Source: Parahaliea mediterranea (GTDB lineage Bacteria > Pseudomonadota > Gammaproteobacteria > Pseudomonadales > Halieaceae). Taken from it: DNA of 64,000 nucleotides. The translations under genes and the position numbers were made by a program. This document shows positions 10,320-54,940 of this stretch, piece after piece. The notes beneath the pieces were generated by a model, which made no database searches, was not told the origin of the DNA, and worked only from the letters and a program-made list of their open reading frames with translations. Each line of letters opens with the position of its first letter. The first letter of the stretch is position 1. Where the stretch lies: contig NZ_QEWO01000003.1 of NCBI RefSeq assembly GCF_003402235.1, forward strand, positions 434,001-498,000, read 5' to 3'.

Positions 10320-10337
10320 TTGCGTTATGAGACTAAC
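10320..10337 (+). promoter_or_regulatory. Shared operator candidate TTGC-N6-AGACTAAC (site 1)
   Basis: TTGC GTTATG AGACTAAC lies in the divergent region between the MFS gene and the first tandem-HxlR gene. It is one of six similar sequences in promoter regions of both catabolic loci. The regulator is inferred to be one or both tandem-HxlR proteins. Confidence 0.55.
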
Positions 10338-10394
10338 AGGCAACCCTCCCTATCGCAACGGTATTGATGTAGTCTTCCCCACCGGGGGCCAAGA

Positions 10395-11354
10395 ATGCAC
10401 TTTTCAACTTATATTCAATCGACAGCGATCACTCAGGGGCTTGAGGTGATTGGTGACCGCTGGACCGTCCTGATTATTCGTGACGCCTTTCTCGGGCGAA
10501 CGACTTTCGGCGAATTTCGCGACCATACCGGCGCCCCCCGCAGCACCTTGGTCAACCGGCTGGATAAGCTGGTCTTTAATGGCATCCTGTACAAAAACCC
10601 CTACAACTACACGCCTTTGCGATTCGAATACCGGCTGACTGACAAGGGGCGGGCGCTATATCCCTGGGCACTGCTTATCTGGGACTGGGATCGCAAGTGG
10701 GCGGACACCGCGGAAGACCAACTGCCACAGCGCATCTACCACAAGGGCTGCGATAGCTGGATGCGGCCGGTGGCAGCGTGTGCTCACTGCAAAGAGCCTC
10801 TGGCCCTGCGGGACATTGGCCACTCGGTCAACCATGACTATACAGCGCCCACCGCCAACACACGCAGCAAGCGACTCACGCGTGCGCGCAGCAATCGTGG
10901 TGGGGCTCCGGCCGACAAAAGTCTGTGGCATGTGACCGATGTCATCGCGGACCGCTGGACGCCACAAATCCTCGCTGCCTGCTTCTTTGGCATAGGGCGC
11001 TACGACGACTTTCGGCGCAAACTGGGGATTGCCACCAACATCCTCTCCGATCGCCTGAAACAGCTGGTAGAAACGGGGATACTGGTGCGCAATTCGTATC
11101 AGGAAAGCCCGCCACGGTACCGCTACGAACTGACCGAAAAGGGCGAGGCACTCTACCCCATCACCCTGGCCTTACAGCAATGGGTGCTTGAATGGATTCC
11201 CCAGGCAAACACCCTGCCGATACACCTGAAGCACACGCCCTGCGGTAAAACGCTGACGACGGCTGTTGTCTGCAATGTCTGCTCAGAACCACTGAAAGCG
11301 CACGAAGTTCGCTTTGTGTTTCGCGATGACAAAAGCAGGGACAACATCAAGTAG
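10395..11354 (+). CDS. Tandem-HxlR transcriptional regulator (copy 1)
   Basis: Two HxlR-type winged-helix domains are fused in one chain: about residues 10-105 (GDRWTVLIIRD, LVNRLDKLV, YRLTDKGRALYPW) and 178-270 (ADRWTPQILAA, LSDRLKQLV, YELTEKGEALYP). Normal HxlR proteins have one domain and act as dimers, so this chain resembles a pre-formed dimer. Each domain is followed by an identical Cys pattern H-x2-C-x9-C-x2-C (H116/C119/C129/C132 and H280/C283/C293/C296), which looks like a small metal-binding ribbon. A paralogue is at 49865. The effector is unknown; targets are probably the genes carrying the shared operator motif. Confidence 0.85.
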   Translation: MHFSTYIQSTAITQGLEVIGDRWTVLIIRDAFLGRTTFGEFRDHTGAPRSTLVNRLDKLVFNGILYKNPYNYTPLRFEYRLTDKGRALYPWALLIWDWDRKWADTAEDQLPQRIYHKGCDSWMRPVAACAHCKEPLALRDIGHSVNHDYTAPTANTRSKRLTRARSNRGGAPADKSLWHVTDVIADRWTPQILAACFFGIGRYDDFRRKLGIATNILSDRLKQLVETGILVRNSYQESPPRYRYELTEKGEALYPITLALQQWVLEWIPQANTLPIHLKHTPCGKTLTTAVVCNVCSEPLKAHEVRFVFRDDKSRDNIK

Positions 11355-11391
11355 GAAGTCCGGTACGGCAAATGCCGCCCCTCGCAGGCCC

Positions 11392-12225
11392 TTAGGCGGT
11401 ACCCAGCGAAAAGGAGCGCACACCAAAGCCGTTCTCTCCGGGTATGCCATGGCCCGCCTCTACGGTGTAGGCCCGTTTGCGCCAGCCGGAGAGTTCGAAC
11501 GCCTTCCAATTCTCTGCCGCGCCCGCCAGGCGATCCGCCAGGAGGTACATCACCAGCGGATGGCTGCCCATGCCGAGATGACTGCAATTGACACCGACAT
11601 TCTCCACTGACGCGCTACCCAGCGGGTCTATACAGTAATCCCAACTGGCAATGCCATCGCTATAGCTGTAAACCGCTGTGCAGGGTACGGGCGGTGGGTG
11701 CTGCCACACCGCATCCGGATCACTCAGCGAGTCCATCCCGTTGCCCTTCAGGTATTTATAGATCTTCACGATGGGGCCATTAACAGGATGCCCCGCCGGT
11801 ATGCGAAACGGGCTTGCCAGTGTAACAACGCGGTCGACAAGGTCTGGCATTTCGTGCGCCAGCAACCGCGCATGGATGCCACCCAGGCTCCAACCGACAA
11901 GCCTCACCGGCTTGGCATGGCTATCGGCAATGCTATCGAGGCGCTCACGCAATTGGGCCACCAAATGCTTATCCAGCCCGGTATTGCGTTTGATGCCACT
12001 GCTATAGGTCGTATATCCCAGCCCCCGCAGCCAGCCACGAATGGCCAAGGTGCTTCGGTCACTTGCAAGGTAACCTGGAAGTACCAGCACAGGATTGCTC
12101 TCTCCCCGAGGCAAGGTGTGCAGCAGCGGGACCAACAGCGGAAGCATCGCACTTTCATAGACAAACCGCGCTTCTGAGACGGGCCAGGTCAGCGGCGGGC
12201 GGATGGTGGTCATTTCGTCACTCAT
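11392..12225 (-). CDS. Alpha/beta hydrolase, lipase-like
   Basis: The hydrolase core begins near LVLPGYLASD, and the nucleophile elbow GWSLGG supplies the Ser. HLGMGSHPL near the end probably supplies the His. The family includes triacylglycerol lipases and esterases. The start at 12225 (MSDEMTT) is chosen because the longer frame to 12381 overlaps the upstream WS/DGAT gene, while this start follows that gene's stop by four bases. The tight spacing makes a two-gene operon with WS/DGAT, consistent with turnover of storage lipid esters. There is no signal peptide, so it is likely cytoplasmic. Confidence 0.8.
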   Translation of the reverse strand: MSDEMTTIRPPLTWPVSEARFVYESAMLPLLVPLLHTLPRGESNPVLVLPGYLASDRSTLAIRGWLRGLGYTTYSSGIKRNTGLDKHLVAQLRERLDSIADSHAKPVRLVGWSLGGIHARLLAHEMPDLVDRVVTLASPFRIPAGHPVNGPIVKIYKYLKGNGMDSLSDPDAVWQHPPPVPCTAVYSYSDGIASWDYCIDPLGSASVENVGVNCSHLGMGSHPLVMYLLADRLAGAAENWKAFELSGWRKRAYTVEAGHGIPGENGFGVRSFSLGTA

Positions 12226-13834: not shown

Positions 13835-16075
13835 TCAGAACCAGTAGTAGTTGAAGGTGGCCCCGTAGGTGCGCGGTGGCGCCAGAACATCCACAGCGCC
13901 ACCGAAGGTATCCACGATGCGGTGAATCGGATACTGCTCGTCATTGAGGTTTTTACCCCACAGCGACAGGTCCCAGTTTCCGCCCTGGGAGGTGTACTTC
14001 AGCGAGGTATCGTAAACGACGTAGCCGTCAATCAAGGATCGGCCGTTATTGCTGGAATCCTGGAAGAACTCGCCACTGTAGGCGGCCGTACCGCTGAGAT
14101 CGAGGAATGCGCCGCTCTCCAATGGCCAGTGATATGCCAGGGTCAAAGCACCGGATTTATTCGGTGAACGGGCCAGTTCGTTGCCACTGTAATCCACTAC
14201 AGTGCCGGTATTGGGGTTGAACAGCGTATAGTCCTTGTATTCGTGGTCCATGAAGGCCAGGTTGCCGGACAATGTCAGGCCCTCTGTCAGCGCGGCGGAG
14301 AAATCCACTTCGATACCTTGCACTGATGCCTCCTTGGCATTGTCAGCGACCAACTGCAGGCTGATCAGCTGAAATACCTGCAGATCTTCATAATCCAAGT
14401 CGAAGGCAGACACGTTCAGGCGCAGTCGATTGTCAAACCACTGGGTTTTGGCACCAATTTCAAGATTGGTCGCAAGCTCAGGCTCCAACGCCCGTTCAGC
14501 GACATCGGCCGATGTCGCCTGGGAAACAAAAGCGCCGCTCTTGTACCCGCGCGATGCAGTAAAGTACAGCAGGTGATCATCAGACACATTCCAGTCCAGC
14601 GACAATCGCGGGCTTACTTCGCCCCATGAATCATCCGACTTTGCCAGATAGTCCGTCCCCGGTCCCAGAGGAATGGCCGCTGGCGAACCGTCCTTTACGT
14701 TATCCGTAGCGGCCTGCTTGATGTCCTTATCATCGCGGGTATAGCGGGCGCCCAATGTCAACGCCAGGCTGGACGAAATATCGTAGGTAACTTGGCCGAA
14801 CACCGCGTAGCTTTCCGTGGTGTTGTCCTGAGTAAACGATACGTTCCCACTGAAGGGAGCAAAGCCCGCCGGCAGCAAGGTGGTATCAAAGGTCTCGATG
14901 CGGTCAACCGTTTCCCTCAGGTAATACAAGCCCACAACCCAGTGGGCGTTGGCTGAATCGCCCGCCAGTCGCAGTTCCTGCGAAAATTGTTCGGCGCCTT
15001 CATCGGCGTTATTCACTACCCCGACCAATCCCGGGGGCGAATCGAAGCCTCCCAAATTCTGCAGCCAAGAGAGGTCGCTCTTGCGATAGGCCGAAAGCGA
15101 CGTGAACGTGCCCCATTCAATATCTACATCTGCCCGCAGGAGGGCACCATATACCTCCCTTTCTTGATATTGCTTGACGCGGTTGTCGCACTTGCGAGGA
15201 TCAGGCGTCGTATCCGCCGCTGCCTGATTGGCGGGAACATAAGCGCCACCAAAGGGCTGGCCAGGAGAATTCAGTTCCGTCATGTAGCGGCACGGGCCGT
15301 TGTTATCGTCCTTTGAATAATCAACACCGAGCAAGATATCGGTGACATCATTCGGGGTAATGGCAAGTTGGGCTCGCGTGCTCAGGTTGTCGACATCGTC
15401 CAGTTCCTGGCCGTTGCGGGTATTTTTGGCAAAGCCATCGCGGTCACGCTTGGAGAAGGTGAATTTACCGGCGATATTGTCTGACAATGAGCCATTAACG
15501 TAGCCGCGGTACACCTGGAGGTTTTCGTTACCGATGGTCACCCCAGCCTTGGCGTCAAATTCATGGGTGGGTTTGGTGGTGTAGAAATTGATGGCGCCGC
15601 CGGCAACGTTCTTTCCGTACAGTGTACCCTGCGGCCCGCGTAGCACCTCGATACGATCCAGGTCGTACAGATCAAGGGATGATGCGCCAGGCCGCCCCAA
15701 ATAAACCTCGTCGATGAACACCGCTACTGCCGGATCGGATCCGGCCGAGTCATTGGAGTTACCGATACCGCGCAGGTATATCTGCGGCTCACCAATATTG
15801 AAGGTACTGATATTGAGGTTGGGAGTCTGCAGCGAAATATCGCCCAACTCAGTAATACCAGCGGGACCGACCTGGTCACCGCTAAACACAGAAACCGATA
15901 GCGGGACGTCCTGCAGATTTTGACTGCGCTTTTCCGCCGTCACCACCACCTCTTCAAGAACAGCCTGGGCTAGGACATGACTACTATTAGCGGCCACCAC
16001 AGCGGCCGCAAGGGCGGCTCCTACAGCCTGATAAGCCTGAATGCGACTGGTCATATTGTTCACCTTGTTATTCAC
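13835..16075 (-). CDS. TonB-dependent outer-membrane receptor (copy 1)
   Basis: The protein has 746 residues with an N-terminal signal (about 1-36), a TonB-box-like EEVVVTAEKRSQNLQDVPLS, a plug domain (LRGPQGTLYGKNVAGGA, INFYT) and a beta-barrel ending in an aromatic residue (FNYYWF). It belongs to the group of receptors common in sphingomonads and marine gammaproteobacteria near catabolic genes, not to classic siderophore receptors. It is divergent from cassette A across a 434-base control region, suggesting it imports the cassette's substrate. The receptor at 50900 is the counterpart near cassette B and shares the same TonB-box, plug motifs and overall order. Confidence 0.9.
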   Translation of the reverse strand: MNNKVNNMTSRIQAYQAVGAALAAAVVAANSSHVLAQAVLEEVVVTAEKRSQNLQDVPLSVSVFSGDQVGPAGITELGDISLQTPNLNISTFNIGEPQIYLRGIGNSNDSAGSDPAVAVFIDEVYLGRPGASSLDLYDLDRIEVLRGPQGTLYGKNVAGGAINFYTTKPTHEFDAKAGVTIGNENLQVYRGYVNGSLSDNIAGKFTFSKRDRDGFAKNTRNGQELDDVDNLSTRAQLAITPNDVTDILLGVDYSKDDNNGPCRYMTELNSPGQPFGGAYVPANQAAADTTPDPRKCDNRVKQYQEREVYGALLRADVDIEWGTFTSLSAYRKSDLSWLQNLGGFDSPPGLVGVVNNADEGAEQFSQELRLAGDSANAHWVVGLYYLRETVDRIETFDTTLLPAGFAPFSGNVSFTQDNTTESYAVFGQVTYDISSSLALTLGARYTRDDKDIKQAATDNVKDGSPAAIPLGPGTDYLAKSDDSWGEVSPRLSLDWNVSDDHLLYFTASRGYKSGAFVSQATSADVAERALEPELATNLEIGAKTQWFDNRLRLNVSAFDLDYEDLQVFQLISLQLVADNAKEASVQGIEVDFSAALTEGLTLSGNLAFMDHEYKDYTLFNPNTGTVVDYSGNELARSPNKSGALTLAYHWPLESGAFLDLSGTAAYSGEFFQDSSNNGRSLIDGYVVYDTSLKYTSQGGNWDLSLWGKNLNDEQYPIHRIVDTFGGAVDVLAPPRTYGATFNYYWF

Positions 16076-16509
16076 CTTTATAGAACGATGGGCTCGCCAT
16101 CACACTTAATTGCATTATTGAACTTACTGATTTTGATTTTCACCGTCAATGCCATTTTTACCGGCCGGGTCCAAAGCGCTCGCCTGACCAGCTTCCAGCC
16201 TCGCCATCCCCGCTCCGCCAAAAACATTCCGCGCCTGGAAATTATTCGATATTAATCAATGATATATAAACTTTAGCGAGTTCTGTGACGATACTTTCAA
16301 CACCGCACCCTGCACTGTGAGACGGGAGAAAACGAGCGCTCGCGATGACGATAATTTAGAATATTCATCATATGAATTGCATTATAAGACCATAATGGAT
16401 AGCCTGCGCACAAAGTTGACAACAACAGGGTAGTTCCGGCCCGTGCGCTTGCAGCGCTCTGCACACCGGCACCACTGCCGACATAATCTATAAAAGGAAG
16501 CCCAAGCCT
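16076..16509. promoter_or_regulatory. Divergent control region between TonB receptor 1 and cassette A
   Basis: This 434-base gap is AT-rich and has no coding frame I would support. It contains a perfect inverted repeat ATTCAT-CAT-ATGAAT at 16363-16377. Next to it is the motif TTGC ATTATA AGACCATA at 16377-16394. A weaker relative, TTGC ATTATT GAACTTAC, is at 16110-16127, close to the receptor start. A Shine-Dalgarno-like AAAGGAAG precedes the NMO gene. Confidence 0.6.
16377..16394 (+). promoter_or_regulatory. Shared operator candidate TTGC-N6-AGACCATA (site 2)
   Basis: TTGC ATTATA AGACCATA lies about 116 bases upstream of the cassette A start and abuts the inverted repeat at 16363-16377. It differs from the other sites in one base of the AGACT core (AGACC). 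Confidence 0.45.
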
Positions 16510-17418
16510 ATGTCGCCCATGTTTGCCAATTTGCGTCTGCCGGCCATCCAGGCGCCGATGTTCCTGCAGTCCGGACCAGACATGGTGATTGCCAGCTGCA
16601 AGTCCGGCGTGATCGGCACCTTCCCCTCGCTGAACACCCGCACGGTGGAGCAACTGGATGAATGGCTGAGCACCATCACCGAGGCCGTAGATAGCGCCAC
16701 CGATGCCCCCTGGGGTATCAACCTGATGATGCATCGCACCAACCTTCGGCGCGACGCAGATATGGCACTGGCGGTCAAATACCGCGCCCCGCTGGTCATT
16801 TCCGCACTGGGCAGCCCGCGCGATGCCATCGACGCGATTCACAGTTACGGCGGCAAGGTCTTTGCCGACGTGGTAACCACGGTGCACGCGCGCAAAGCCA
16901 TCGACGCTGGTGTCGATGGGCTGGTTCTGGTGGCGGCGGGCGCCGGTGGGCATACCGGCCAGCTATCCGGCTTTGCCTTTGTCGAGGAAGTGCGCACCTT
17001 CTGGGATGGCCCCATCGTGCTGGGCGGCGGCATTTCTTCCGGCCGGGCCATCCGCGCGGCAGAGGTACTGGGCGCAACCTACGCCTACCTGGGCACGCGC
17101 TTCATCGCCACCGACGAAAGCATGGCCGTGCAGGAATACAAGCAGATGGTGGTCGATGCCAGCGGCAGCGACATCATCTGTTCAGACGCCCTGACCGGGG
17201 TCAAGGCCAACTGGCTGCGCGGCAGCCTGATCAAAGCAGGCTTCGACCCCGACCACATGCCCAGCGCAGGCAAGATCGACATCACCCAGTCCTCGGGTGA
17301 CGCCAAGCGCTGGCGCGATGTGTGGGCCGCGGGCCAGGGGGTCGGGGCTATTGATGATGTGCTTCCTATCGCCACACTTGTCGACCGACTCGTCGGCGAA
17401 TACAACGCGGCAAAATAA
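16510..17418 (+). CDS. NMO/2-nitropropane-dioxygenase-like FMN protein (copy A)
   Basis: The 302-residue TIM-barrel flavoprotein has the family motifs QAPMF, GAGGHTG (phosphate/FMN loop with the conserved His) and GGGISSGRAIRAAEVLGA. Family members include nitronate monooxygenases and FabK-like enoyl reductases. In CoA-degradation clusters they often replace enoyl-CoA reductases or isomerases. A nitronate substrate is therefore not implied. It is the first gene of cassette A, 29 bases ahead of the ligase gene. Copy B is at 55826. The flavin-binding call is firm; the reaction is not. Confidence 0.8.
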   Translation: MSPMFANLRLPAIQAPMFLQSGPDMVIASCKSGVIGTFPSLNTRTVEQLDEWLSTITEAVDSATDAPWGINLMMHRTNLRRDADMALAVKYRAPLVISALGSPRDAIDAIHSYGGKVFADVVTTVHARKAIDAGVDGLVLVAAGAGGHTGQLSGFAFVEEVRTFWDGPIVLGGGISSGRAIRAAEVLGATYAYLGTRFIATDESMAVQEYKQMVVDASGSDIICSDALTGVKANWLRGSLIKAGFDPDHMPSAGKIDITQSSGDAKRWRDVWAAGQGVGAIDDVLPIATLVDRLVGEYNAAK

Positions 17419-17447
17419 TTCCAAGGGACTAGCCCGGGGAGAAGACA

Positions 17448-19112
17448 ATGCGTACCAGCTCTCAACAACGCATCAACTCGATGACCAGCGCAGGTTACTG
17501 GGGCAGCGATACGCTGCATTCACTGCTCGCCCTGTGGGCCAGCAAGGCACCATCGTCCCTGGCTGTCATCGACCAGCCCAACAAGGCCGAACTCACCGAC
17601 ATCCCGGCGCGCAGGCTCAGCTACGGCGACCTCGATGCGCTCAGCGCCCAGTATGCCGCCGAATTGCTGGCCCTTGGCATCAAGCCGGGTGACCGCCTGC
17701 TGGTGCAACTGCCAAACATCAGCGAACTGATTGCCCTGTACTACGCAACCAGCAGGATTGGCGCAATCATCTCGCCCGTTCCCGTTCAGTACGGTGCCCT
17801 TGAGCTGACGAAGTTTGCTGGCGTACTGAACCCCGCGGCGTTGATCACCCTGCCCCGGCTGCGCAACCAGGCACTGGCAGAGCTCGCCCGCCAGGCCCTC
17901 CCCGGGCTTGCCATCTGGGAGATTGGCAGCGACATCGGCGCTGCCGATACGATCAGCGACGCAGGCCGAGAGCGCCTGCAGGCCCACGAGGCCAGCCAGG
18001 CGGATGCCAACGACATTGTCACCGTGTGCTGGACCTCTGGCACCACGGGCACGCCCAAGGGCGTGCCGCGCTCCCACAATATGTGGATTGCCATCGCCCG
18101 CTACACGATTGCCGCGGGCGCCTACCGCCAGGGCGAAGTCCTGCTCGCTCCCTTTCCCATGATCAACATGGCGGCCATTGGCGGCTTTCTGTTCCCCGCC
18201 GCCCTGCTTGGGGCAACCCTGGTACTACACCACCCCATCGACCCACCGCTCTACCTGCAGCAACTTCAGGACGAACAGGTAACCTTTACCATTGCGCCGC
18301 CGGCCCTGCTCAATCGCCTGGCCCAGCAGAGCGCACTGTGGGCCGACGGCGACTACAGCTCGCTGCGGGCCATCGGTTCCGGTTCGGTGCCGCTGTCGCC
18401 GTCGATGATCGCCACCTTCGAAAACGACTACGGCAAGAAGATCATCAATTTCTACGGTTCCAATGAGGGCATCAGCCTGTTCTCCACACCGGAGATCGCG
18501 CCGAGCCCAGAGTATCGCGCCGCGCTGTTCCCGCGCCTGGGCGTGGAAGGCATGCCCTGGGAAAACGACGCCCATGCCTCCATTCACACCCGGGTCATAG
18601 ACACCGCCACTGGGGCCACCATTACTGAGCCTGGCATCGCCGGCGAACTCTGCATATCCAGCCCGGCCATCTTCGACGGCTACCTGGATCACGACGGCGA
18701 TGGGGTGTTCACGCAAGACGGCTTTTTCCGCACCGGCGATCTGGTGGAAATATGCGGGGAGCCGGCGTGCTACTACCGCATTGTTGGGCGCTGCAAAGAC
18801 ATCATCAACCGCGGCGGCATGAAGATCTCGCCCGCCGAACTCGACACCGTGCTGGAAGGCCACCCGCAATTGCTGGAAGCGGCGGTTTGCGCCTACCCCG
18901 ACGACATGCTGGGAGAAAAGGTGTGTGCCTGCATCGTGCCCAGCGATGACGCACCCGAACCCTCCCTGGAAGACCTGTGCCGCTGGATGCTGGACAAAGG
19001 CATTGCCAAGTTCAAGCTGCCTGAGCGGTTGGAGGTTTTTGACGCACTGCCCCGCAATCCTGTGGGCAAGGTGGTACGCAGCCAGCTACAAGCACTGGTA
19101 GAAGGACGATAA
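17448..19112 (+). CDS. Acyl-CoA ligase, AMP-forming (copy A)
   Basis: The 554-residue ANL-superfamily enzyme carries the P-loop TSGTTGTPKGVPRS, the A5 region FYGSNEGIS, GDLVEI, the hinge GRCKDIINRGGMKISPAEL and the C-terminal catalytic Lys in NPVGKVVR. It activates a carboxylic acid to its CoA thioester through an acyl-adenylate in the cytoplasm. The start at 17448 follows a weak GGGGAGA ribosome site. The stop is four bases before the thiolase gene. Substrate cannot be read from the sequence; the cassette context suggests an acid made by oxidative cleavage. Confidence 0.92.
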   Translation: MRTSSQQRINSMTSAGYWGSDTLHSLLALWASKAPSSLAVIDQPNKAELTDIPARRLSYGDLDALSAQYAAELLALGIKPGDRLLVQLPNISELIALYYATSRIGAIISPVPVQYGALELTKFAGVLNPAALITLPRLRNQALAELARQALPGLAIWEIGSDIGAADTISDAGRERLQAHEASQADANDIVTVCWTSGTTGTPKGVPRSHNMWIAIARYTIAAGAYRQGEVLLAPFPMINMAAIGGFLFPAALLGATLVLHHPIDPPLYLQQLQDEQVTFTIAPPALLNRLAQQSALWADGDYSSLRAIGSGSVPLSPSMIATFENDYGKKIINFYGSNEGISLFSTPEIAPSPEYRAALFPRLGVEGMPWENDAHASIHTRVIDTATGATITEPGIAGELCISSPAIFDGYLDHDGDGVFTQDGFFRTGDLVEICGEPACYYRIVGRCKDIINRGGMKISPAELDTVLEGHPQLLEAAVCAYPDDMLGEKVCACIVPSDDAPEPSLEDLCRWMLDKGIAKFKLPERLEVFDALPRNPVGKVVRSQLQALVEGR

Positions 19113-19116
19113 ACCC

Positions 19117-20349
19117 ATGACATCGATTTATATCCTCGGCGGCGCGCAAACCGACTTTGCGCGCAACTGGGCCCGGGAGGGCCTGGGCATTTATGACATG
19201 TTCGAGGAAGCCCTGCACGGCGCCGTGCGCGACGCCTCCATCGAACCCTGCCAGATCCAGGTGGGCCACGTCGGCAACTTCGTGGGCGACCTGTTCTGCG
19301 GGCAGGGCCAGCTCAACGGCTTTTTCGCCGAGGTATACCCCGAGCTGACCGGCATACCCACCGCGCGCCACGAAGCCGCATGCGCCTCTGGCACTATGGC
19401 CATACTGGCCGCCATGCGCGACATAGAAGCGGGCCACTACCAGGTAGCCGCAGTGGTCGGCGTGGAGCTGATGCGCAATGTCGATGGCCGCACCGGCGCC
19501 GAGCATCTGGGCGCGGCGGCGTGGGCGGGCCGCGAAGCGCTGGACTGCACCTACCCCTGGCCACACATGTTCGACCAGGTCATTCGCGAATACGATGCCC
19601 GCTACGGTATCCACGGCGACGCCCTGCTGCGCATCGCCGAAATCAACTTCAGCAACGCGCGCACCAACCCCCGCGCCCAGAGCCGGAGCTGGCAGTTCCC
19701 CGAGGGCAGCTTCAGTTGCAATGACGAACTCAACCCGGTGATCGAAGGCCGGGTGCGGCGGCAGGATTGCGGCCAGATCACCGATGGCGCCGCCTGCGTG
19801 ATTCTCGCCGGTGAATCCGCCGCCAGAGAACATGCCGAGCGCACCGGCACATCGCTGGCCAACATTCCGCGCATCAAGGGCTGGGGACATCGCTCTGCCC
19901 CCCTGTCACTGGCCAGCAAGCTGCAACGCAGCGCGGGCGCTCCGCTGATCTTTCCCCACGTCCGGGATATGTTCAACGACGCACTGCGCCGCGCCGGGAT
20001 TGGCGCCGTAACCGAGCTGGATGGCCTGGAAACCCACGACTGTTTCTCGATCACCGAATACATGGTCATTGACCATTCGGGCCTGACCGCTCCCGGCGAA
20101 AGCTGGAAGGCGGTTATGGATGGTCGCATCACCCGCGATGGCGACTTTCCCATCAACCCCAGCGGCGGGCTTATCGGCCTTGGTCACCCGGTGGGGGCCA
20201 CCGGCGTGCGCATGGCCCTGGACTGCGCGCGCCAGGTGACCGGCCGCGCAGACGGCTACCAACTGGCCAACGCCCGCACCCTTGCCACCTTCAACCTGGG
20301 CGGCAGTGCCACCACCTGCTCCAGCCTGATTATTGGGTGTGACCAATGA
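19117..20349 (+). CDS. SCP-x/acetyl-CoA acetyltransferase-type thiolase (copy A)
   Basis: The 410-residue thiolase-fold protein has the nucleophile Cys in AACASGTMA (about residue 89), the His/Asp block ETHDCFSITEY and the GGLIGLGHPVGATG motif. The C-terminal NLGGSATT replaces the CxG of classical thiolases, as in sterol-carrier-protein-x-type enzymes. Such enzymes cleave branched or ring-derived 3-ketoacyl-CoA. Its stop codon overlaps the start of the next thiolase (ATGA), indicating translational coupling. Copy B at 58428 is alike over its whole length. Confidence 0.85.
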   Translation: MTSIYILGGAQTDFARNWAREGLGIYDMFEEALHGAVRDASIEPCQIQVGHVGNFVGDLFCGQGQLNGFFAEVYPELTGIPTARHEAACASGTMAILAAMRDIEAGHYQVAAVVGVELMRNVDGRTGAEHLGAAAWAGREALDCTYPWPHMFDQVIREYDARYGIHGDALLRIAEINFSNARTNPRAQSRSWQFPEGSFSCNDELNPVIEGRVRRQDCGQITDGAACVILAGESAAREHAERTGTSLANIPRIKGWGHRSAPLSLASKLQRSAGAPLIFPHVRDMFNDALRRAGIGAVTELDGLETHDCFSITEYMVIDHSGLTAPGESWKAVMDGRITRDGDFPINPSGGLIGLGHPVGATGVRMALDCARQVTGRADGYQLANARTLATFNLGGSATTCSSLIIGCDQ

Positions 20350-22405: not shown

Positions 22406-22572
22406 AAGTCCCTCAACAGAAATATGCAAGCGCCCAAGGAATGTGAAAGCAACGCGGTAGCGAGAATCGTACCATAGCTTTCGGCGACGGGGCGCCGTAC
22501 AGCAGCCGACAGAAAACCACCTAACAGGCTGCCACATGTTTATACGACCCAATCACGCATCAGAGGCAAACT

Positions 22573-27652: not shown

Positions 27653-27706
27653 TGCTTTAACTCCTGAATGAGGTTGACTGCACACAAGTTACGACACGAT
27701 ATTAAC

Positions 27707-27724
27707 TTGCACTATTAGACTAAC
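27707..27724 (+). promoter_or_regulatory. Shared operator candidate TTGC-N6-AGACTAAC (site 3)
   Basis: TTGC ACTATT AGACTAAC lies 55 bases upstream of the carotenoid oxygenase 1 start codon. It matches site 1 in all positions of the TTGC and AGACTAAC halves. Confidence 0.6.
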
Positions 27725-27790
27725 AACTGAAAAGGAAATTTAACAAGCACTTTTTATCAATTTTTCCTGCTTATTCTTTAGATTTTTTAC

Positions 27791-27808
27791 AGGCGTTATG
27801 AGACTTAT
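27791..27808 (+). promoter_or_regulatory. Shared operator candidate (site 4)
   Basis: AGGC GTTATG AGACTTAT shares the central GTTATGAGACT with site 1 (11 consecutive bases including one more G/C), but the first two bases of TTGC differ. It sits between the two divergent genes. Confidence 0.5.
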
Positions 27809-37416: not shown

Positions 37417-37435
37417 TTAATGAAAGCAACCCTCC

Positions 37436-38074: not shown

Positions 38075-38099
38075 GCACTTGACGCAAGGCGACACAAAA

Positions 38100-38116
38100 A
38101 TGATATGTTATATCAT
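38100..38116. promoter_or_regulatory. Zur box 3
   Basis: ATGATATGTTATATCAT is identical to box 1. It lies between divergent genes DUF3299 and the ABC ATPase, about 26 bases from one start and 39 from the other, so a single bound Zur dimer could repress both. Confidence 0.8.
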
Positions 38117-38154
38117 AATAGATTGCTACCACTCAGCGTCGTCAGGAGTAAACC

Positions 38155-48109: not shown

Positions 48110-49780
48110 CTATGCGGCCATGCGCTTGCTCTGCACGATCCGAAAACGCGCGGTGACAAAGGCCAGGTCGGCCAGGCAGGCATTACCCGCCGGGTTGAGG
48201 CCGGTTACGTGAAAGTCGGAATAGGCCGCGGCGAAGTTGATCGGCATGCCATGCAGGTTCACCGCCACCGATGCGCCGGCGGCGTGGTAGGCCTCTACGG
48301 CGGCATCGATGAAGGCCTCGTCGGTGGAGTACACGTGGGAGGTAATGGCGCCGCATTCGCGGGCATTGCTGGTGGCATCGTCCAGGCAGCCCTGGGCGCT
48401 GTGGTTGGCCACGATAAAGGACACCGGCCCGAACACTTCCTGGCGGTACAGGTCGCGGTCGGCCTCGGTGGCGGCAATGATCAGCGGCGACGCGGTGCGT
48501 GCAGCGGGGAACTCGGCATACGCCAGCGGCGCCGAGTCGCGCAGCAGGCGCTCGCCGGCCAATTCGCGGTAGCGCTGCACGTTGTCCAGCACGGCATCAT
48601 CGAACAGGGTGCCGCAGAGCGTCGCCGCCCGGCGCGGCTCTGCCAACCAGCCGTCCACGGCCTCGCAGATTGCCGCCTGCACCTGCGCGACCGGTACTTT
48701 TTTGCCAGCCACCCGCACGCCGTCTGCAGGAAGGTGGATATTCTGCACGCTGGTACACATCTGCGCCGATGCCTGGCACAGGGACTGGGCAATGGCCCGG
48801 GCGGTGGCGGCGAGGTCATCGGTGGATTCCAGCACCACCGAGTTGCAGCCGGCGGTTTCGGTATACACCTGCTTGCCGGGGCAATTCTGCTCCAGGTAGG
48901 CGCCAAAACGCGGGCTGCCGGTAAAGTCGACAATGGCGGTGTCCGGGTGCTCCACCAGTTGCAGGGCAATGGGCGCCTCGCGGGTATCAGCCGCCAGCGT
49001 TACCAGGTTGGGATCGAACCCCGCCTCGGCCAGCACCTCGCGGCACACCCTGGCCACCATGGCCACCGGCAGGGTGGCGGCCGGGTGGGGCTTGAGGATG
49101 ACGGGGTTGCCCGTGGCCAGCGAGGCGCACAGGGCCGGGTAGGTATTCCACAGGGGGAAGGTGGCGCAGCAGATCACCACCGATACACCACGGGGCAGCA
49201 GGCGGTACTGCTTGTCGAGGCAGGCGGCACCGTCGCCGCCAAAGCTGCGCTCCCAGCGCGCGGTGGCCGGCACGTCGGCCATGGCCTTGTGGGCATAGGC
49301 CAGTGCTTCCAGCCCGCGGTCCAGGGCATTGGCGCCACTGCCGGCAAAGGCCATCACGTAGGACTGGCCGGAGGTGTGCATGGTGGCGTGGGCATTGGCA
49401 AACAGCTGCTCGCCGCAACGCTGCAGAATCTCCAGGCACACGCCCACGCGCTGCTCAGGGGTTGTTGCACCCCATTGCGGCCGCGCCGCGGCAATGGCGG
49501 CGAACAGCGGGGCCGGGTCTGGCCGTGGGTAGCGCACCCCCAGCGGCTCGCCGGTGTAGGGAGAGACCTCTTCACCCACCCGCGCGACTTCGCCGGGCTG
49601 GGTCAGTGGAAAGTCCGCCTGCAGCATGGCCTCGAAGGCCGCCTGGCCGGCGGCGGGCTTTTCTTCGCCGTGAATCTTGGTGCTGGGGCTTTCCGGCCAG
49701 CCACTCCAGGAATAGCGCCTGGCGCAGGCGTCGAGGGCTTTATCCAGCAGGGGGCGGTGTTTTGAGAACCAGTCAGTCAT
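48110..49780 (-). CDS. paaN: PaaN-type aldehyde dehydrogenase
   Basis: The 556-residue protein has the aldehyde dehydrogenase fold with PaaN-like N-terminus (HRPLLDKALDACARRYSW). NAD site FPLWNTYPALCASLATGNPVILKPHP, catalytic Glu in ETAGCNSVVLES, and catalytic Cys in SAQMCTSVQN are present. PaaN-type enzymes oxidise ring-opening aldehydes of phenylacetate degradation or related aldehydes. No other paa genes are nearby. Its upstream region carries motif site 5, and the tandem-HxlR regulator follows upstream on the same strand; oxidation of an aldehyde made by the carotenoid oxygenase is a reasonable inference. Confidence 0.85.
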   Translation of the reverse strand: MTDWFSKHRPLLDKALDACARRYSWSGWPESPSTKIHGEEKPAAGQAAFEAMLQADFPLTQPGEVARVGEEVSPYTGEPLGVRYPRPDPAPLFAAIAAARPQWGATTPEQRVGVCLEILQRCGEQLFANAHATMHTSGQSYVMAFAGSGANALDRGLEALAYAHKAMADVPATARWERSFGGDGAACLDKQYRLLPRGVSVVICCATFPLWNTYPALCASLATGNPVILKPHPAATLPVAMVARVCREVLAEAGFDPNLVTLAADTREAPIALQLVEHPDTAIVDFTGSPRFGAYLEQNCPGKQVYTETAGCNSVVLESTDDLAATARAIAQSLCQASAQMCTSVQNIHLPADGVRVAGKKVPVAQVQAAICEAVDGWLAEPRRAATLCGTLFDDAVLDNVQRYRELAGERLLRDSAPLAYAEFPAARTASPLIIAATEADRDLYRQEVFGPVSFIVANHSAQGCLDDATSNARECGAITSHVYSTDEAFIDAAVEAYHAAGASVAVNLHGMPINFAAAYSDFHVTGLNPAGNACLADLAFVTARFRIVQSKRMAA

Positions 49781-49825: not shown

Positions 49826-49843
49826 ATAAGTCTTTTTATGCAA
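49826..49843 (-). promoter_or_regulatory. Shared operator candidate TTGC-N6-AGACTTAT (site 5)
   Basis: On the minus strand TTGC ATAAAA AGACTTAT lies about 46 bases upstream of the paaN-type gene, in the 84-base gap below the regulator gene. Confidence 0.6.
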
Positions 49844-49864
49844 GTATTTGGTTTTACAGGGTGT

Positions 49865-50812
49865 TTAACCGCCAGCCGCTGAGGACGGGCTCATGCCCTG
49901 AATGGTGAAATCCACCTCGTGCGCCCGCACTTCCTCGCCACACTGGTCACAGACCACCTGGCCTGTCAACGGGCGTTCACAGGTGGTGTGGGTCAGCGCC
50001 ATCGGGTGCCCTGCACCACTGGAGTCACACCAGCGATCCCCCCACTGCAGTAGGGTGAGAAACCAGGGGAAGAGATCCCACCCCTTGTCGGTAAGGTGGT
50101 ATTCGTGGCGCAGGGGCCGCTGCTGGTAGGGCCGCTGTTCGAAGATGCCCTGCTCCACCAGAAAGCGCATGCGGTCCGACAGGATGTTGGTGGCCACCGG
50201 CAGCTCCCGGTGGAACTCATCGAAACGATGCAAGCCATGCAAAGCTAGTGCGATGACATTTGCGGTCCAGCGGTCGCCCACCAGGTTCACCAGGTTGCGA
50301 TAGACGTGCCGCTCACTGGGCACCGCATCTGCCGACAGGGACGAGCGACGCCGTACTTTCTTATCGCGCACGTCACGTGTTGCACCGGGACCGGGCTGGT
50401 AGCGCACTGCGCGGCCATCCACCGCCTGGTGGCAGTGGCTGCAATCCATGCGCGGCACAAAGGCTTTGCCGCAGTTGCGGTGCACCAGCCTTACCGCCTG
50501 GATGTCCGGGGTATCGTAGTAGCGATCCTCCCACACCACGGCCATCAGGGCGTTGTGGTAGAGGTCCACCGACTTGCGCGTCAGGTGATAAGTGGGGTGG
50601 CGCGCGCCGCCACGGCGCCGCAGGCAATCGTGATCCTGCAGCCACTTGAGCCGGTCCGACAGCACACCGCGGGAAATACCGGTCTCCTGCAGGATGCCAC
50701 CGAAGGAGTGAATCCCCCAGAATACTTCCTGCAGAATCAGCAGGCACCACTTGTCGCCAATCTGGTCCAGCGCCCGGTTGATGGAACTGGCACGTGTTGT
50801 TAATTCAGTCAT
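49865..50812 (-). CDS. Tandem-HxlR transcriptional regulator (copy 2)
   Basis: The start at 50812 (MTELTTRASS) is preferred to 50833. The protein has two HxlR winged-helix domains: GDKWCLLILQE...LSDRLKWL...YHLTRK and GDRWTANVIALAL...LSDRMRFLV...YHLTDKGWDLFPW. Each is followed by H-x2-C-x9-C-x2-C, identical in spacing to that in copy 1 (10395). The Cys pattern in all four repeats suggests a metal-binding element. It lies between the paaN-type gene and the TonB receptor. It is the likely regulator of the second catabolic block, perhaps with overlapping specificity with copy 1. Confidence 0.85.
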   Translation of the reverse strand: MTELTTRASSINRALDQIGDKWCLLILQEVFWGIHSFGGILQETGISRGVLSDRLKWLQDHDCLRRRGGARHPTYHLTRKSVDLYHNALMAVVWEDRYYDTPDIQAVRLVHRNCGKAFVPRMDCSHCHQAVDGRAVRYQPGPGATRDVRDKKVRRRSSLSADAVPSERHVYRNLVNLVGDRWTANVIALALHGLHRFDEFHRELPVATNILSDRMRFLVEQGIFEQRPYQQRPLRHEYHLTDKGWDLFPWFLTLLQWGDRWCDSSGAGHPMALTHTTCERPLTGQVVCDQCGEEVRAHEVDFTIQGMSPSSAAGG

Positions 50813-50899
50813 ACAGCCGCCTGGCAATCGCAAGCGGCTATTGTGCCCAATGCCGGCGGGGAATTCATACCGGCACTGGGCAGGTGCATCACTGGGAGC

Positions 50900-53221
50900 T
50901 CAGAAGCTCTTGGTGACGGTCAGCCCATAGGTACGCGGGGCCATGTAGAACTCCGATGTCACGCCAGTGGGGTCGACGATCAGGTTCGACAGCACCAGCT
51001 CGTCGGTGAGGTTTTTACCCCACACGTCAACCGTCAGGCTGGTATCGGCACTGGCCCAGCTCACGCTGGCATCCAGCAGACCCTCGGCCGGCTGGGCTTC
51101 CCGCTCACGGTTCTGCGGCCCCAGAAAGTATTCGTCCTTCCAGCTGTAGGTGGCGCCGAAGTCCACCGTGCTGCCGCCGCTCAGCGGCCAGCGGTAGTTG
51201 GCGCTTACCGTGTAGGCCTGCTCGGGCGCGTAGGCCAGGTTGTTGCCGGAAAGATCGTTACCGTTGGAGTTGACGAATTCATCGTAAGTGGCATCGTTCC
51301 AGCTGTAGCTGGCGCTCAGGGTGAGGTTTTCAGTGGGCACGATATCGAAGGAGGCTTCCACCCCTTCCGATGCCGCCTGGGCGTTAAGCAGGGTCAGCAG
51401 GAACAGGCTGTTCAGCTCGAATACCTGCAGGTCTTCGTAGTCCATGTCGAAGTAGGACAGGTTGAACTGCAGGCGGTTGTCCCACCAGTTCGACTTCATG
51501 CCCACCTCGCGGTTGGTGACAAACTCCGGGTCCACCGGCTGGGCGGCCACCGAGGGCAGGTTGGTCTGGGACTGGAAGGCCCCGCTCTTGTAGCCTTCTG
51601 AATAGGTGGCGTAGAGCATCATGCCATCCCAGGGGTGCCAGGCCACCGACAGCTTCTGGGTGACCTTGGACCAGGAATCGCTGGCCGACACCGGCGCTGC
51701 GAATTCCGGCAGGATCAGCGGGACGCCCGAAGGCGTGGTGCCCAGCAGGTCGATGGCATTCTGGGTAATGTCCTTCTCGTCCTCCGCCCAGCGCAGGCCG
51801 TAGGTCAGGGTCAGCTGCTCGGTAATATGCCAGTCGGCCTGACCGTAGGCCGCCATGCTCTTGGTGGTATTGTCCTGGGTAAAGAGCACATCCCCGGTGC
51901 CGGCCAGGCCGAGCCCCTGCAGCAGGGTGCTGTACTGGGTGTAGAACTCCTCTTCGCGCTCGACGTCCTCTTCCATGTAGAAGGCGCCCAGCAGCCAGTT
52001 GAAACGATCGGTGCTGCCGGCCAGGCGGAACTCCTGAGACCACTGGGACGCCTCTTCCTCGGCGGCGTCAATCACGTTCTCCGGCCCGGTGAAGGAGCCG
52101 GGAGGCAGGGGCACCCCCGGGGGCGAGGGCGCGTCCAGGTCAATCAGCGGCAGGCCGGTGAGGTCGTCCAGGCTGTTGTAGTCGCTGAAGCGCCAGGCGG
52201 TGATGGAGGTCAGGGTGGCCACGTCCATGTCGTACTCAAGGCGCGCCATCAGGCCGCCGGTTTCGCGCTCCTGGGTGGTATCGAACTGCGACGCGCAGTT
52301 GCGCACATCGGACCGGTAGCGATCAGACATGGCGCCCTCCCAGAAGGGGCCGAGCCCGGCGATGGCCTTGTCCAGGTTGCCCACATGGCGGCAACTGCCG
52401 TTGGTTTCGTTGTCGGCGTAGTCGGCGCCCAGCAGCAATTCCGCGTTGTCGCCGATATCGAACAGCAACTGGCCGCGCGCGCTCCAGTTCTCCAGGCTGC
52501 CCATGTCGTCACCGGCGTTGGCGGCACCGATGCTGCCACCGATCAGTTTGCTCGCCGAGAAATCCCCCATGCTGGCAATCTCGTCGGCGGTGATGACGTT
52601 CTTGCCAAAGCCGTCGCGCTCACGCCAGGAAAATACCAGCTTGCCGGCGGTGCCGTCGCTCAGCGGCCCGGAAGCCAGCCCCTGCAGGTGCAACAGCCCA
52701 TCGCTGCCGACCGAGCCGCGCAGGCGCAGCTCCCCCTCCTCGGAGGGCCGGCTGGTCACGATATTAACCGCGCCGCCGTTAGTGTTCTTGCCATACAGGG
52801 TGCCCTGGGGGCCGCGCAGGATTTCGATGCGCTCCAGGTCGAACAGGTCAAAACCGATGCCGCCGGTACGGCCGATGTACACCTCGTCGATGAACACGCC
52901 CACCGCCGGGTCCGACGCTGCGGAATCGGAGCTGTTGCCGATACCGCGGATGTAAATACGCGGCTCGCCCACGTTGAACTGGTTGAAGGTGAGCCCGGGG
53001 GTGCGATAGGCGATGTCGTTCAGCCCCTCGATTTTGCCCACCTCGACATTACCGCCATCGACCGCCGCCACCGACAGCGGCACGTCCTGGATACTCTGGC
53101 TGCGCTTCTCGGCGGTGACGATCACCTCTTCGAGCTGGGGTTGGGCGTAGGCAGCCTGCTGCACGGCCAGCGCCAGTGGGAGCAGTGCTGTTGCGGGTGC
53201 ACGGAACAGGGTTTTTTTCAT
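50900..53221 (-). CDS. TonB-dependent outer-membrane receptor (copy 2)
   Basis: The 773-residue receptor has a signal peptide (about 1-27, ending AYAQP), TonB-box EEVIVTAEKRSQSIQDVPLS, plug motif LRGPQGTLYGKNTNGGAVNIVTS and a barrel ending in VTKSF. The overall layout, including DYEDLQVF in the barrel, closely matches the receptor at 13835. It probably imports the substrate for the second catabolic block. The gap upstream to the carotenoid oxygenase gene is 86 bases, and both are on the minus strand, so they may be co-transcribed. Confidence 0.9.
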   Translation of the reverse strand: MKKTLFRAPATALLPLALAVQQAAYAQPQLEEVIVTAEKRSQSIQDVPLSVAAVDGGNVEVGKIEGLNDIAYRTPGLTFNQFNVGEPRIYIRGIGNSSDSAASDPAVGVFIDEVYIGRTGGIGFDLFDLERIEILRGPQGTLYGKNTNGGAVNIVTSRPSEEGELRLRGSVGSDGLLHLQGLASGPLSDGTAGKLVFSWRERDGFGKNVITADEIASMGDFSASKLIGGSIGAANAGDDMGSLENWSARGQLLFDIGDNAELLLGADYADNETNGSCRHVGNLDKAIAGLGPFWEGAMSDRYRSDVRNCASQFDTTQERETGGLMARLEYDMDVATLTSITAWRFSDYNSLDDLTGLPLIDLDAPSPPGVPLPPGSFTGPENVIDAAEEEASQWSQEFRLAGSTDRFNWLLGAFYMEEDVEREEEFYTQYSTLLQGLGLAGTGDVLFTQDNTTKSMAAYGQADWHITEQLTLTYGLRWAEDEKDITQNAIDLLGTTPSGVPLILPEFAAPVSASDSWSKVTQKLSVAWHPWDGMMLYATYSEGYKSGAFQSQTNLPSVAAQPVDPEFVTNREVGMKSNWWDNRLQFNLSYFDMDYEDLQVFELNSLFLLTLLNAQAASEGVEASFDIVPTENLTLSASYSWNDATYDEFVNSNGNDLSGNNLAYAPEQAYTVSANYRWPLSGGSTVDFGATYSWKDEYFLGPQNREREAQPAEGLLDASVSWASADTSLTVDVWGKNLTDELVLSNLIVDPTGVTSEFYMAPRTYGLTVTKSF

Positions 53222-53307
53222 GGGAGCCTCTGAATGAACATTATGGTTTATGGGTCGGGGCTGCGTGTTGCGGGTACGGCTTTAAGCCGGCGGGCCGGAG
53301 CGCATGC

Positions 53308-54831
53308 TCAGGCCGCCGGGTACAGATCTTCTCCTCGGGCCCAGGTGGCGTGAAACCCGTAGGGCACGCGCTGCGGCATGCGCACCCGGGCGATGGGGCC
53401 GGCCTCGATGTCAGTGGCGTCAAACACCAGGCAGTGGGACTGCCAGTTCTTGCTATCGGTCACCAGGGTAATCACATAGCCGTCATCTTCCGGGTCCTGG
53501 GCGGTGGCACCGCGGCGCGGGGCGTACACGGCTTCGCTGCCAAACACACCGGCACCGTAGTCCCACTGCCAGCGGCGGCCGCTGTCGTTGTCGTACTTCA
53601 CCAGGCCGGTAAAGCGCAGGGTGTAGCCGCCTTCGTGGTGCAGGGGAATATGCTGGTGGTAGGCGTAGCGGCCCTTGATGCCCATGTACAGCGGGTTGGT
53701 CTTGTTGAATTCGGTGTTCAGGTCGTCCAGGTCACCCTCGCGTACTTCGCCGGTGCGCAGGTTGAAGGCCCAGCGGTAGTTGTTGGCCTCCAGGCGCATG
53801 TAGGCCAGCATGGAGGCCAGTTCGCCCTCGCCGGGCTGGGCGGCGGGCATGGGGTTGGTGGAGCGGCAGCCGTCCATGATCAGCCAGTCGCCCTCTTCCC
53901 AGCAGTTGCTGGTGTGCAGGATGTAGCCCGGCTCGCACTCGAACCAGCGCACCTCGCTGCCAGCGCCGTGGCGGGGGATGACCCCGAAGCGGATGGGCAG
54001 GTCACGGTGAAAGGTCAGCACCCGGTAGCCGTGGCGGCGCAGCACGTCCATGTCGTGAAAAAAGGGCAGGTCGTGCAGCACGGTGTAATTGCGGCTGACC
54101 CCAATGTCATGGGGCAGGCGCGGCCCGGGCAGGTCGATGGCCACTTCGTGCAGCAGCCGGCCGCGAGCGTCGGCCACGCCGTAGGTCATGTAGGGCGGCT
54201 CGTTGCCATAATCAAAAAACAGCAGCTCGCCGGTGTGCGGGTCAACCTTGGAGTGGGCCGACATACGCCGCTTGTCGCGCCCCTGCAGCTCAAAGTAGCC
54301 GCGGGTGCCCAGATCGTGGGCGTCCACCCGGTAGGGGTGGCCGGCGTTGTACCACAGACTCATCAGGGAGCCATCGTAAAGAAAGATGTCGGTGTTGGAG
54401 GTGTCCTTGATGCCAAAGGGCGACAGCTCGTAGTCAAAGGGCCCCATCACCCCCGGGGAGATGGAGCGGCCATCGCGCAGTTCACTGTTGCGCGCCAGGG
54501 TATCGACATAGCGGTTGTGGTAGCGCGCCCGGCCCTGGTGAAAATAAACCCCGTGAATCATGCCGTCGCCATCGAAGGGGTGGTAGCGGTTCTTGGGCTC
54601 GAATCGCGGGTTGGGGCCATTGCGGAAGTAAGCGCCGCAGAGGTCGGCGGGCAACTCGCCCTCCACCGGCAGGTCACCCACGTCCATCTCCGTATTGACC
54701 GGTGCGTAAACGCCGTGCAGGTAGGGGTTGTCGTGGGCGTAAATCCACGGCTGGGTGTTCTCGAATTCGGCAACGCCGCCAATGCACTGCTCGACAGACG
54801 GGTATTCGGTGACTCGGCTCAGGGGCTGCAT
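53308..54831 (-). CDS. Carotenoid-cleavage-type dioxygenase (copy 2)
   Basis: The 507-residue RPE65/CCD-family enzyme has the four iron His in SAHSKVD, LPHDIGVS, ILHTSNCWEEGD and GFHATW, plus FRNGPNPRF and FDGDGMIHGV. It is similar in layout to copy 1 (26183) but longer at the N-terminus and in loops. It probably cleaves a double bond in a polyene, apocarotenoid or stilbene. It is divergent from the DUF1295 gene, with motif site 6 between them. The TonB receptor gene is downstream on the same strand. Confidence 0.93.
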   Translation of the reverse strand: MQPLSRVTEYPSVEQCIGGVAEFENTQPWIYAHDNPYLHGVYAPVNTEMDVGDLPVEGELPADLCGAYFRNGPNPRFEPKNRYHPFDGDGMIHGVYFHQGRARYHNRYVDTLARNSELRDGRSISPGVMGPFDYELSPFGIKDTSNTDIFLYDGSLMSLWYNAGHPYRVDAHDLGTRGYFELQGRDKRRMSAHSKVDPHTGELLFFDYGNEPPYMTYGVADARGRLLHEVAIDLPGPRLPHDIGVSRNYTVLHDLPFFHDMDVLRRHGYRVLTFHRDLPIRFGVIPRHGAGSEVRWFECEPGYILHTSNCWEEGDWLIMDGCRSTNPMPAAQPGEGELASMLAYMRLEANNYRWAFNLRTGEVREGDLDDLNTEFNKTNPLYMGIKGRYAYHQHIPLHHEGGYTLRFTGLVKYDNDSGRRWQWDYGAGVFGSEAVYAPRRGATAQDPEDDGYVITLVTDSKNWQSHCLVFDATDIEAGPIARVRMPQRVPYGFHATWARGEDLYPAA

Positions 54832-54911
54832 GGCTGTCTCCCTCGGGGTTTCGGGTGGGCGACCCGCTCGCGCCGGGCCGCAGGACCAGTGTCCTCTTTT
54901 TCAACACTTGC

Positions 54912-54940
54912 TTGCGTAACAAGACTAAAGCTTATAGTCT
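54912..54940 (+). promoter_or_regulatory. Shared operator candidate (site 6) with overlapping inverted repeat
   Basis: TTGC GTAACA AGACTAAA is at 54912-54929. Its AGACTA half also pairs with TAGTCT to form AGACTA-N7-TAGTCT at 54922-54940. It lies in the 149-base divergent gap, 52 bases before the DUF1295 start. The inverted arrangement suggests two regulator units meeting head to head. Confidence 0.6.

Follow-up and report, generated by a model that had tools for sequence, protein, structure and literature searches.

A motif that recurs between the genes of two catabolic loci of the gammaproteobacterium Parahaliea mediterranea was analysed and is read here, with a probability of roughly 0.78, as an asymmetric operator for tandem HxlR regulators, whose single chain contains two HxlR domains, with a separate operator variant at each locus and with repression that a ligand would release. 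The loci lie in a window, by which we mean the whole 64 000-nucleotide stretch that was analysed (assembly GCF_003402235.1, contig NZ_QEWO01000003.1, positions 434,001–498,000), at ~8.8–28.9 kb (locus A) and ~48.1–62.4 kb (locus B). The motif, its conservation, its placement, its linkage to tandem HxlR genes and its covariation with the regulator clade were all found by computation. An earlier note on the window had reported six copies of TTGC-N6-AGACTWA and had proposed one regulon spanning 45 kb; the single regulon was not supported, the sites forming two blocks (~10–28 kb and 50–55 kb) with different centres.

All six copies are present, four of them exact (10320+, 27707+, 49827- and 54912+) and two with two mismatches each (16377+ and 27791+), and all six lie in intergenic gaps between likely genes, as had been claimed; position 54912 falls within the DUF1295 open reading frame only with a far-upstream start, and an ATG is located at 54981. 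Two sites had been overlooked, at 16106–16125 (+) and 54935–54954 (-). The sequence comparisons described below support the six sites and these additions as a predicted operator set, which is given here in the coordinates of a 20-column core together with one doubtful site.

10316–10335, + strand: predicted A-type operator, 59 bp upstream of HxlR-A and ~130 bp upstream of the divergently oriented MFS gene
16106–16125, + strand: predicted A-type operator, before TonB receptor A
16373–16392, + strand: predicted A-type operator, before the NMO–acyl-CoA synthetase–thiolase operon, divergent from TonB receptor A
27703–27722, + strand: predicted A-type operator, before carotenoid oxygenase A
27787–27806, + strand: predicted A-type operator, second site in the oxygenase A/hydratase gap
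49828–49847, - strand: predicted B-type operator, before the PaaN-like aldehyde dehydrogenase; orthologous sites in relatives
54908–54927, + strand: predicted B-type operator, in the oxygenase B/DUF1295 gap; orthologous sites in relatives
54935–54954, - strand: predicted B-type operator, facing oxygenase B and forming a head-to-head pair with 54908+; the pair is kept in L065–L068
37410–37429, - strand: doubtful site, before the TonB receptor of a zinc cluster

The exact form TTGC-N6-AGACTWA has four matches in the 5.09 Mb genome (29 contigs), all inside the window, and the reversed exact pattern, used as a control, has none in the whole genome. The exact motif is not equally frequent elsewhere and survives this frequency check, whereas its loose forms are no commoner than controls: with up to two mismatches the window holds 15 matches against a shuffle mean of 11.9 (25 of 100 shuffles reach 15), and with up to one mismatch the genome holds 32 against 46 for the reversed pattern. 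The information therefore resides in the full motif. Chance repetition picked out by a pattern-seeking reader would agree with the lack of enrichment of the loose forms; the confinement to the window and the independent recovery of the motif from relatives leave it a negligible explanation.

For this recovery, 195 relatives (own genome counted) were searched for tandem HxlR proteins and 40 stretches around matches were fetched, in many of which the gene order of locus B is kept. Unseeded expectation maximization (EM) was run from 300 starts on ~107 kb of mostly non-coding DNA from these 40 loci, with the window excluded. The sequence TTACTTGCATAAAnAGACTt, as registers or strands of one motif, appeared in all 25 top solutions, the best of which has sites in 28 loci. 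A general 26-column matrix, thinned to 43 of 60 relatives' sites before the scan, was then applied to the window and gave, by 26-column start, 49824- (37.1 bits), 54931- (29.9), 16371+ (29.6), 27701+ (24.6), 16104+ (23.8), 37406- (22.8), 10314+ (22.6) and 54906+ (21.9), followed by 13.8 bits; the maximum over 30 Markov sequences was likewise 13.8 bits. A matrix built from relatives only thus regains five of the six sites of the earlier note, together with 16106+, 54935- and the doubtful 37410-. A calibrated model made from relatives only (R1), in whose own-genome run 150 of 408 first-look candidates were scored, gave six genome matches at E ≤ 10, none of them outside the window, with E values of 0.001–2.3: 49827- (the best R1 match of the genome), 54932-, 54908+, 16373+, 37413- (the doubtful site, E = 1.2) and 27703+. 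The sites at 10316 and 16106 were not among them. Whether the sites are kept upstream of orthologues, a point on which the earlier note had staked the motif, was checked in the relatives and conservation was found.

The 20-column core matrix, built from relatives' sites only, had eight window matches above 16 bits, one of which is the doubtful 37410-, compared with a mean of 0.08 and a maximum of two for 60 column-permuted matrices. At 13 tandem-HxlR loci outside the matrix training (250 kb) 14 matches were found versus a permuted mean of 1.28 (maximum 5, 60 permutations), and at 61 single-HxlR loci (1.1 Mb) seven versus 3.08 (maximum 7, 25 permutations). Loci L140–L179 gave 67 matches versus a permuted mean of 1.60, a count that is partly circular because some of these loci were fetched for their R1 matches. 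When loci were pooled (training loci included), only eight of 197 sites lay inside panel genes, although those genes account for 40% of the DNA, and 145 of the 197 were located at most 300 bp upstream of a panel gene.

The motif is linked to tandem HxlR genes across genomes. At E ≤ 0.05, R1 gave 75 matches in 43 of the 195 genomes, the match places being taken from a run with stricter filters in which 39 candidates were scored per genome; for 58 of the 75, a full-length tandem HxlR gene is at most 20 kb away. Of 54 genomes that encode a full-length tandem HxlR, 35 had an R1 match, compared with eight of the 141 other genomes (Fisher 1.8e-17), a co-occurrence that is partly circular because the training sites came from loci picked for their tandem HxlR. 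Among the 17 unlinked matches, ten have cluster-type neighbours (nine adjoin an oxygenase, synthetase, thiolase or NMO gene and one, G022:C1, a TonB receptor only), five have none (G066, G115, G148, G168 and G177) and two (G048:C26 and G165:C89) were not fetched. As separate observations, six B-clade tandem HxlRs (L087, L090, L092, L093, L094 and L170) are without a nearby oxygenase match or clear site, and in G013, G035 and G070 sites and an oxygenase are found elsewhere in the same genome (L148, L152 and L153).

The proposal of the earlier note that the tandem HxlR proteins read the motif stands to the extent that they are its best candidate readers, by linkage, co-occurrence in genomes, covariation of operator and regulator and recurrence in Actinomycetota. 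An AraC-type regulator is a very improbable reader. AraC-type proteins read asymmetric two-box sites, a gene of this family (21542–22552) sits within locus A and the two-box form TTGC-N6-AGACT presumably resembles AraC/XylS half-sites. This gene was nevertheless rejected as the reader, not being conserved together with the sites: no match to it was found in 80 relative stretches (thresholds 1e-15 and 1e-8), many of which hold sites, and 80 further loci gave weak matches (31–33%) only in L191 and L254. No AraC-type protein was present among the scanned locus B proteins, and the motif centre follows the HxlR clade.

The two regulators of the window, HxlR-A (319 residues) and HxlR-B (322 residues), score 139.1 and 105.3 bits against PF01638 (cut-off 20.8) with two domain matches each, and are 34% identical to one another. 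They are the only two frames of the genome with double HxlR matches, the other four matches being single and in frames of 126–185 residues. The pair therefore does not fit the single-domain HxlR pattern of ~110–170 residues; two domains in a single chain were also found in 37 aligned proteins. In HxlR-A each of the two HxlR domains is followed by a zinc-ribbon-like H-C-CxxC segment. An AlphaFold2 model of HxlR-B (mean predicted local distance difference test score 85.1, predicted template-modelling score 0.85) shows a pair of winged-helix heads and, behind each of them, a strand-rich segment in which H, C, C and C residues are conserved; these conserved residues and the model are suggestive of zinc ribbons. 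A Foldseek search with this model gave nine matches at E ≤ 0.001, all of them PA1374, PA1607, HypR or YodB chains, and in sequence PA1607 is the closest to the N-terminal half of HxlR-A, and PA1374 and YodB/HypR-type chains are the closest to its C-terminal half. The window regulators share the PF01638 domain with Bacillus subtilis HxlR, YodB and HypR and differ from the solved HxlR/DUF24 chains (107–168 residues) in having two domains per chain and H-C-CxxC segments.

Excerpts of one report (PMC7835342) state that MarR/DUF24 proteins, Bacillus HxlR included, bind DNA as dimers. The same excerpts describe an engineered HxlR-cpYFP-HxlR formaldehyde sensor, which likewise holds two HxlR units in one chain and keeps its ligand response, but which is artificial and has identical halves, whereas the window proteins are natural and have unlike halves. 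Local catabolic regulons of the IclR and GntR families are similar in having a local regulator, motifs upstream of their own operons and covariation of regulator and motif. No account of tandem HxlR regulators, of the motif or of a motif survey for such regulators was found in searches of the open-licence PubMed Central (PMC) literature.

YodB-type HxlR members have a palindromic operator. The present operator is asymmetric. Column self-similarity favours a direct repeat with a period of 14 bp in the A motif, but in the B motif direct and inverted arrangements score comparably; a site from Microthrix comes close to a palindrome. A search for the palindrome ACTTV-Nk-BAAGT before single-HxlR genes gave one near match versus 0.42 expected.

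The operator occurs in two variants. In the window, columns 11–13 read TAT in the five locus A sites and AAA, AAA and AAC in the three locus B sites. With columns 11–14 masked during site selection, column 11 was T in 23/41 at A-labelled loci versus 18/99 at B loci, and column 13 was T in 22/41 versus 21/99. In a quick maximum-likelihood tree of 71 tandem HxlRs, which carried a long-branch warning and from which six proteins with stops had been dropped, the set that contains HxlR-A has 13 rows (SH-aLRT 96) and the clade that contains HxlR-B has 43 (SH-aLRT 100). For 11 A and 42 B loci (sites chosen with the centre masked, siteless loci not counted, window and L197 left out), a TnT centre was found in the best site of eight of ten A-clade loci versus three of 35 B-clade loci (p = 3e-5) and, over all sites, in 12/15 versus 4/91 (p = 3e-10). 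Unseeded EM on the 11 A-clade loci, with the window excluded, returned GTAACTT..ATTATGAGACTAA in its top three solutions. The A matrix derived without the window scored the locus A sites at 36.0 (27701), 26.7 (10314), 22.9 (16371), 22.1 (27785) and 21.8 bits (16104), and the three locus B sites at 24.1, 18.6 and 15.5 bits. The site at 27787, which has 9.9 bits on the general matrix, surfaced with this second motif variant. A calibrated A-type model from relatives only (R2), run on the own genome only, gave two matches at E ≤ 10, each of which lies in locus A. The window and G004 have sites of both types, with the centre expected for each. A different arrangement was observed in Aliiglaciecola (L197 1501–10918), where two tandem HxlRs of different clades flank one oxygenase cluster with at least five sites.

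Each block of sites in the window adjoins a separate pair of tandem HxlR and carotenoid oxygenase genes, and the sites probably make up two parallel regulons, one for each such pair. Two are preferred to one because the sites form two blocks with unlike centres, each with its own HxlR and oxygenase, and because zinc-uptake and unrelated genes lie between them. It is unlikely that a single regulon is served by two interchangeable tandem HxlRs and that the centres differ by neutral drift: the outer ACTT and AGACT blocks are indeed common to both sets and 54935- scores well on both the general and the A matrix, but the centre follows the HxlR clade and differs between loci even within one genome. 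Cross-talk between the A and B sets is possible, as both have these outer blocks in common.

The placement of the sites bears on how they might act. TATAAT-like boxes downstream of pooled sites fall at column 27 in 26 of 70 cases, the next offset having nine. Given this constant distance, the site overlaps the predicted -35 box and spacer before the oxygenase in many relatives. Were the motif a core promoter element of a special sigma factor, the fixed TATAAT distance ahead of many oxygenase B orthologues would be accounted for; this reading is made highly improbable by the opposite orientations of sites in front of ACS and TonB-receptor genes, by the head-to-head arrangement of 54908+ and 54935- and by the confinement of the motif to the window within a 5 Mb genome. 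An operator is favoured over a promoter element because the sites occur in both orientations. A tentative alternative, although one to be taken seriously, is that the tandem HxlR is an activator which binds at the spacer and -35 region and aids RNA polymerase at a poor -35 box. The site does lie over the predicted -35/spacer at a fixed distance from TATAAT in relatives, TTGCAT can be seen as an imperfect -35 box and Bacillus HxlR is described as a positive regulator in the excerpts of PMC7835342. This activation is opposed by the sites of opposite orientation (12/12 before ACS_A and 8/8 before TBDT_B) and by the window sites themselves, most of which are without a phased -10 box, as expected for a blocking operator.

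Steric repression with release by a ligand is therefore preferred to activation. The HxlR-A operator would be roughly ACTTGC-RYTAT-nAGACTWAY and the HxlR-B operator roughly ACTTKY-RTAAM-nAGACTWA. One tandem chain would act as a ready-made HxlR dimer, each head binding one of two unlike half-sites (ACTT.. and AGACT..). The bound regulator would block RNA polymerase at the oxygenase, receptor and activation/β-oxidation genes, and the binding of a ligand akin to the substrate or to its cleavage product would lift this block. In this scheme we infer protein binding, the repressive sign, the ligand, the function of the zinc-ribbon-like segments and the half-site geometry.

Several observations weigh against repression by two locus-specific tandem HxlRs, in addition to the circularity given above. 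The phased -10 box is mostly confined to oxygenase B orthologues; in the window only 54908+ has a near -10 box (TATAGT, column 26), and at the phased position 54935- and 16106 have two mismatches and the other sites three to four. No site at E ≤ 0.05 was present in 19 of the 54 genomes with a tandem HxlR, 13 of the 71 tree rows have no site near a panel gene and the five unlinked strong sites without a catabolic neighbour look like chance. The pairing of one locus with one regulator is presumptive, the B site 54935- scoring as high as 24.1 bits with the A matrix. Some of the covariation reflects common ancestry, as the hosts of the A and B clades differ, and among the fetched loci both types occur together only in the window and in G004 (L067/L098).

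Locus A encodes an MFS transporter, HxlR-A, an alpha/beta hydrolase, a WS/DGAT acyltransferase, a TonB receptor, NMO, acyl-CoA synthetase, SCP2-type thiolase, thiolase, the AraC regulator, an SDR, SurE, a thioesterase, an RPE65-family oxygenase and an enoyl-CoA hydratase. Locus B comprises a PaaN-type aldehyde dehydrogenase, HxlR-B, a TonB receptor, an RPE65-family oxygenase, DUF1295, NMO, acyl-CoA synthetase, SCP2-type thiolase, thiolase and a tannase/feruloyl-esterase-family protein. The principal genes are as follows.

8828–10183, - strand: MFS transporter, locus A
10395–11354, + strand: HxlR-A, tandem HxlR regulator
13835–16075, - strand: TonB-dependent receptor A
16510–21536, + strand: NMO-like flavoprotein, acyl-CoA synthetase, SCP2-type thiolase and thiolase (presumed operon A)
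21542–22552: AraC-family gene, locus A
26183–27685, - strand: RPE65-family carotenoid oxygenase A; an ATG with a ribosome-site-like AGGAG is found near 27652
27979–28857, + strand: enoyl-CoA hydratase, locus A
48110–49780, - strand: aldehyde dehydrogenase, locus B
49865–50833, - strand: HxlR-B, tandem HxlR regulator
50900–53221, - strand: TonB-dependent receptor B
53308–54831, - strand: RPE65-family carotenoid oxygenase B
54855–60850, + strand: DUF1295 protein, NMO, acyl-CoA synthetase, SCP2-type thiolase and thiolase (presumed operon B)
60881–62437, + strand: tannase/feruloyl-esterase-family protein, downstream in locus B

The window holds the only two RPE65 matches of the genome, one per locus. 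Both oxygenases score far below the equivalog cut-offs that NCBIfam sets for lignostilbene and 8'-apocarotenoid enzymes; the solved chain nearest to them by sequence is a carotenoid 9,10-dioxygenase. The loci are like those of lignostilbene and apocarotenoid dioxygenases in that an RPE65-family cleavage enzyme stands beside genes for aldehyde oxidation and CoA activation, and they differ in that the window oxygenases fall below the equivalog cut-offs of those enzymes. The aldehyde dehydrogenase of locus B passes the PaaN_2 cut-off (TIGR02288), although the neighbours that were scanned showed no obvious phenylacetate genes; it is perhaps a paralogue recruited for cleavage aldehydes. The tannase/feruloyl-esterase-family gene that ends operon B has homologues in several related clusters and possibly points to substrates that are esters or phenolics.

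A zinc-uptake cluster, an ammonium transporter gene with P-II and other unrelated genes separate the two loci. The zinc-uptake cluster (29300–40073) contains ZrgA (29769) and a Fur-family, Zur-like gene (30408), both near the doubtful site, as well as DUF3526/ABC2 permeases, an ABC ATPase, a TonB receptor, DUF3299 and MacB/FtsX. The site 37410- was considered as a further member of the operator set and is doubted: it overlaps an inverted repeat (GATATA-T-TATATC, 37402–37414) that resembles a Zur box, before the TonB receptor of this zinc-uptake cluster, and it scores only 11.7 bits on the A matrix. On these grounds it probably does not belong to the set.

The arrangement recurs beyond close relatives. 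In Agromyces cerinus (Actinomycetota, 71% GC) a tandem HxlR accompanies NMO, synthetase, dehydrogenase, oxygenase and thiolase homologues (L195 35–10921), and the two best A-matrix matches of the 20 kb locus (18.9 and 10.6 bits, the next distinct place having 3.3) are located upstream of the dehydrogenase and between thiolase and synthetase. Either horizontal transfer or an old pathway would explain this recurrence. The two top places in a Microthrix metagenome-assembled genome (MAG; Actinomycetota) are just before the tandem HxlR match (a frame with a stop) and at 6149, and those in a Caulobacteraceae MAG are between the HxlR and DUF1295 genes and before the oxygenase. A deltaproteobacterial MAG (L190 9879–9922) has two overlapping, weaker B-type sites in tandem (15.3 and 13.6 bits) just before its tandem HxlR.

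The tandem HxlRs may form a distinct class, a proposition that we regard as evenly balanced when its parts are taken jointly: naturally fused pseudo-dimers, the two heads of which differ and would bind differing half-sites in a constant asymmetric layout that may be a 14 bp direct repeat, in contrast to the palindromes of ordinary HxlR proteins; for the most part devoted to catabolic clusters with a carotenoid oxygenase; spread over at least two phyla, Pseudomonadota and Actinomycetota; and split by clade and operator in a way that would insulate paralogous clusters. For this group of regulators, of which no account was found in searches of the open-licence PMC literature, an operator can now be predicted, and their target genes become findable by motif scanning. 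The window would offer a natural example of a fused dimer that reads an asymmetric operator, and the same cell holds two paralogues of it. The motif marks a carotenoid-oxygenase-like catabolic pathway in many Halieaceae-type genomes and in some others, and the substrate of this pathway could be traced through whatever releases the regulator.

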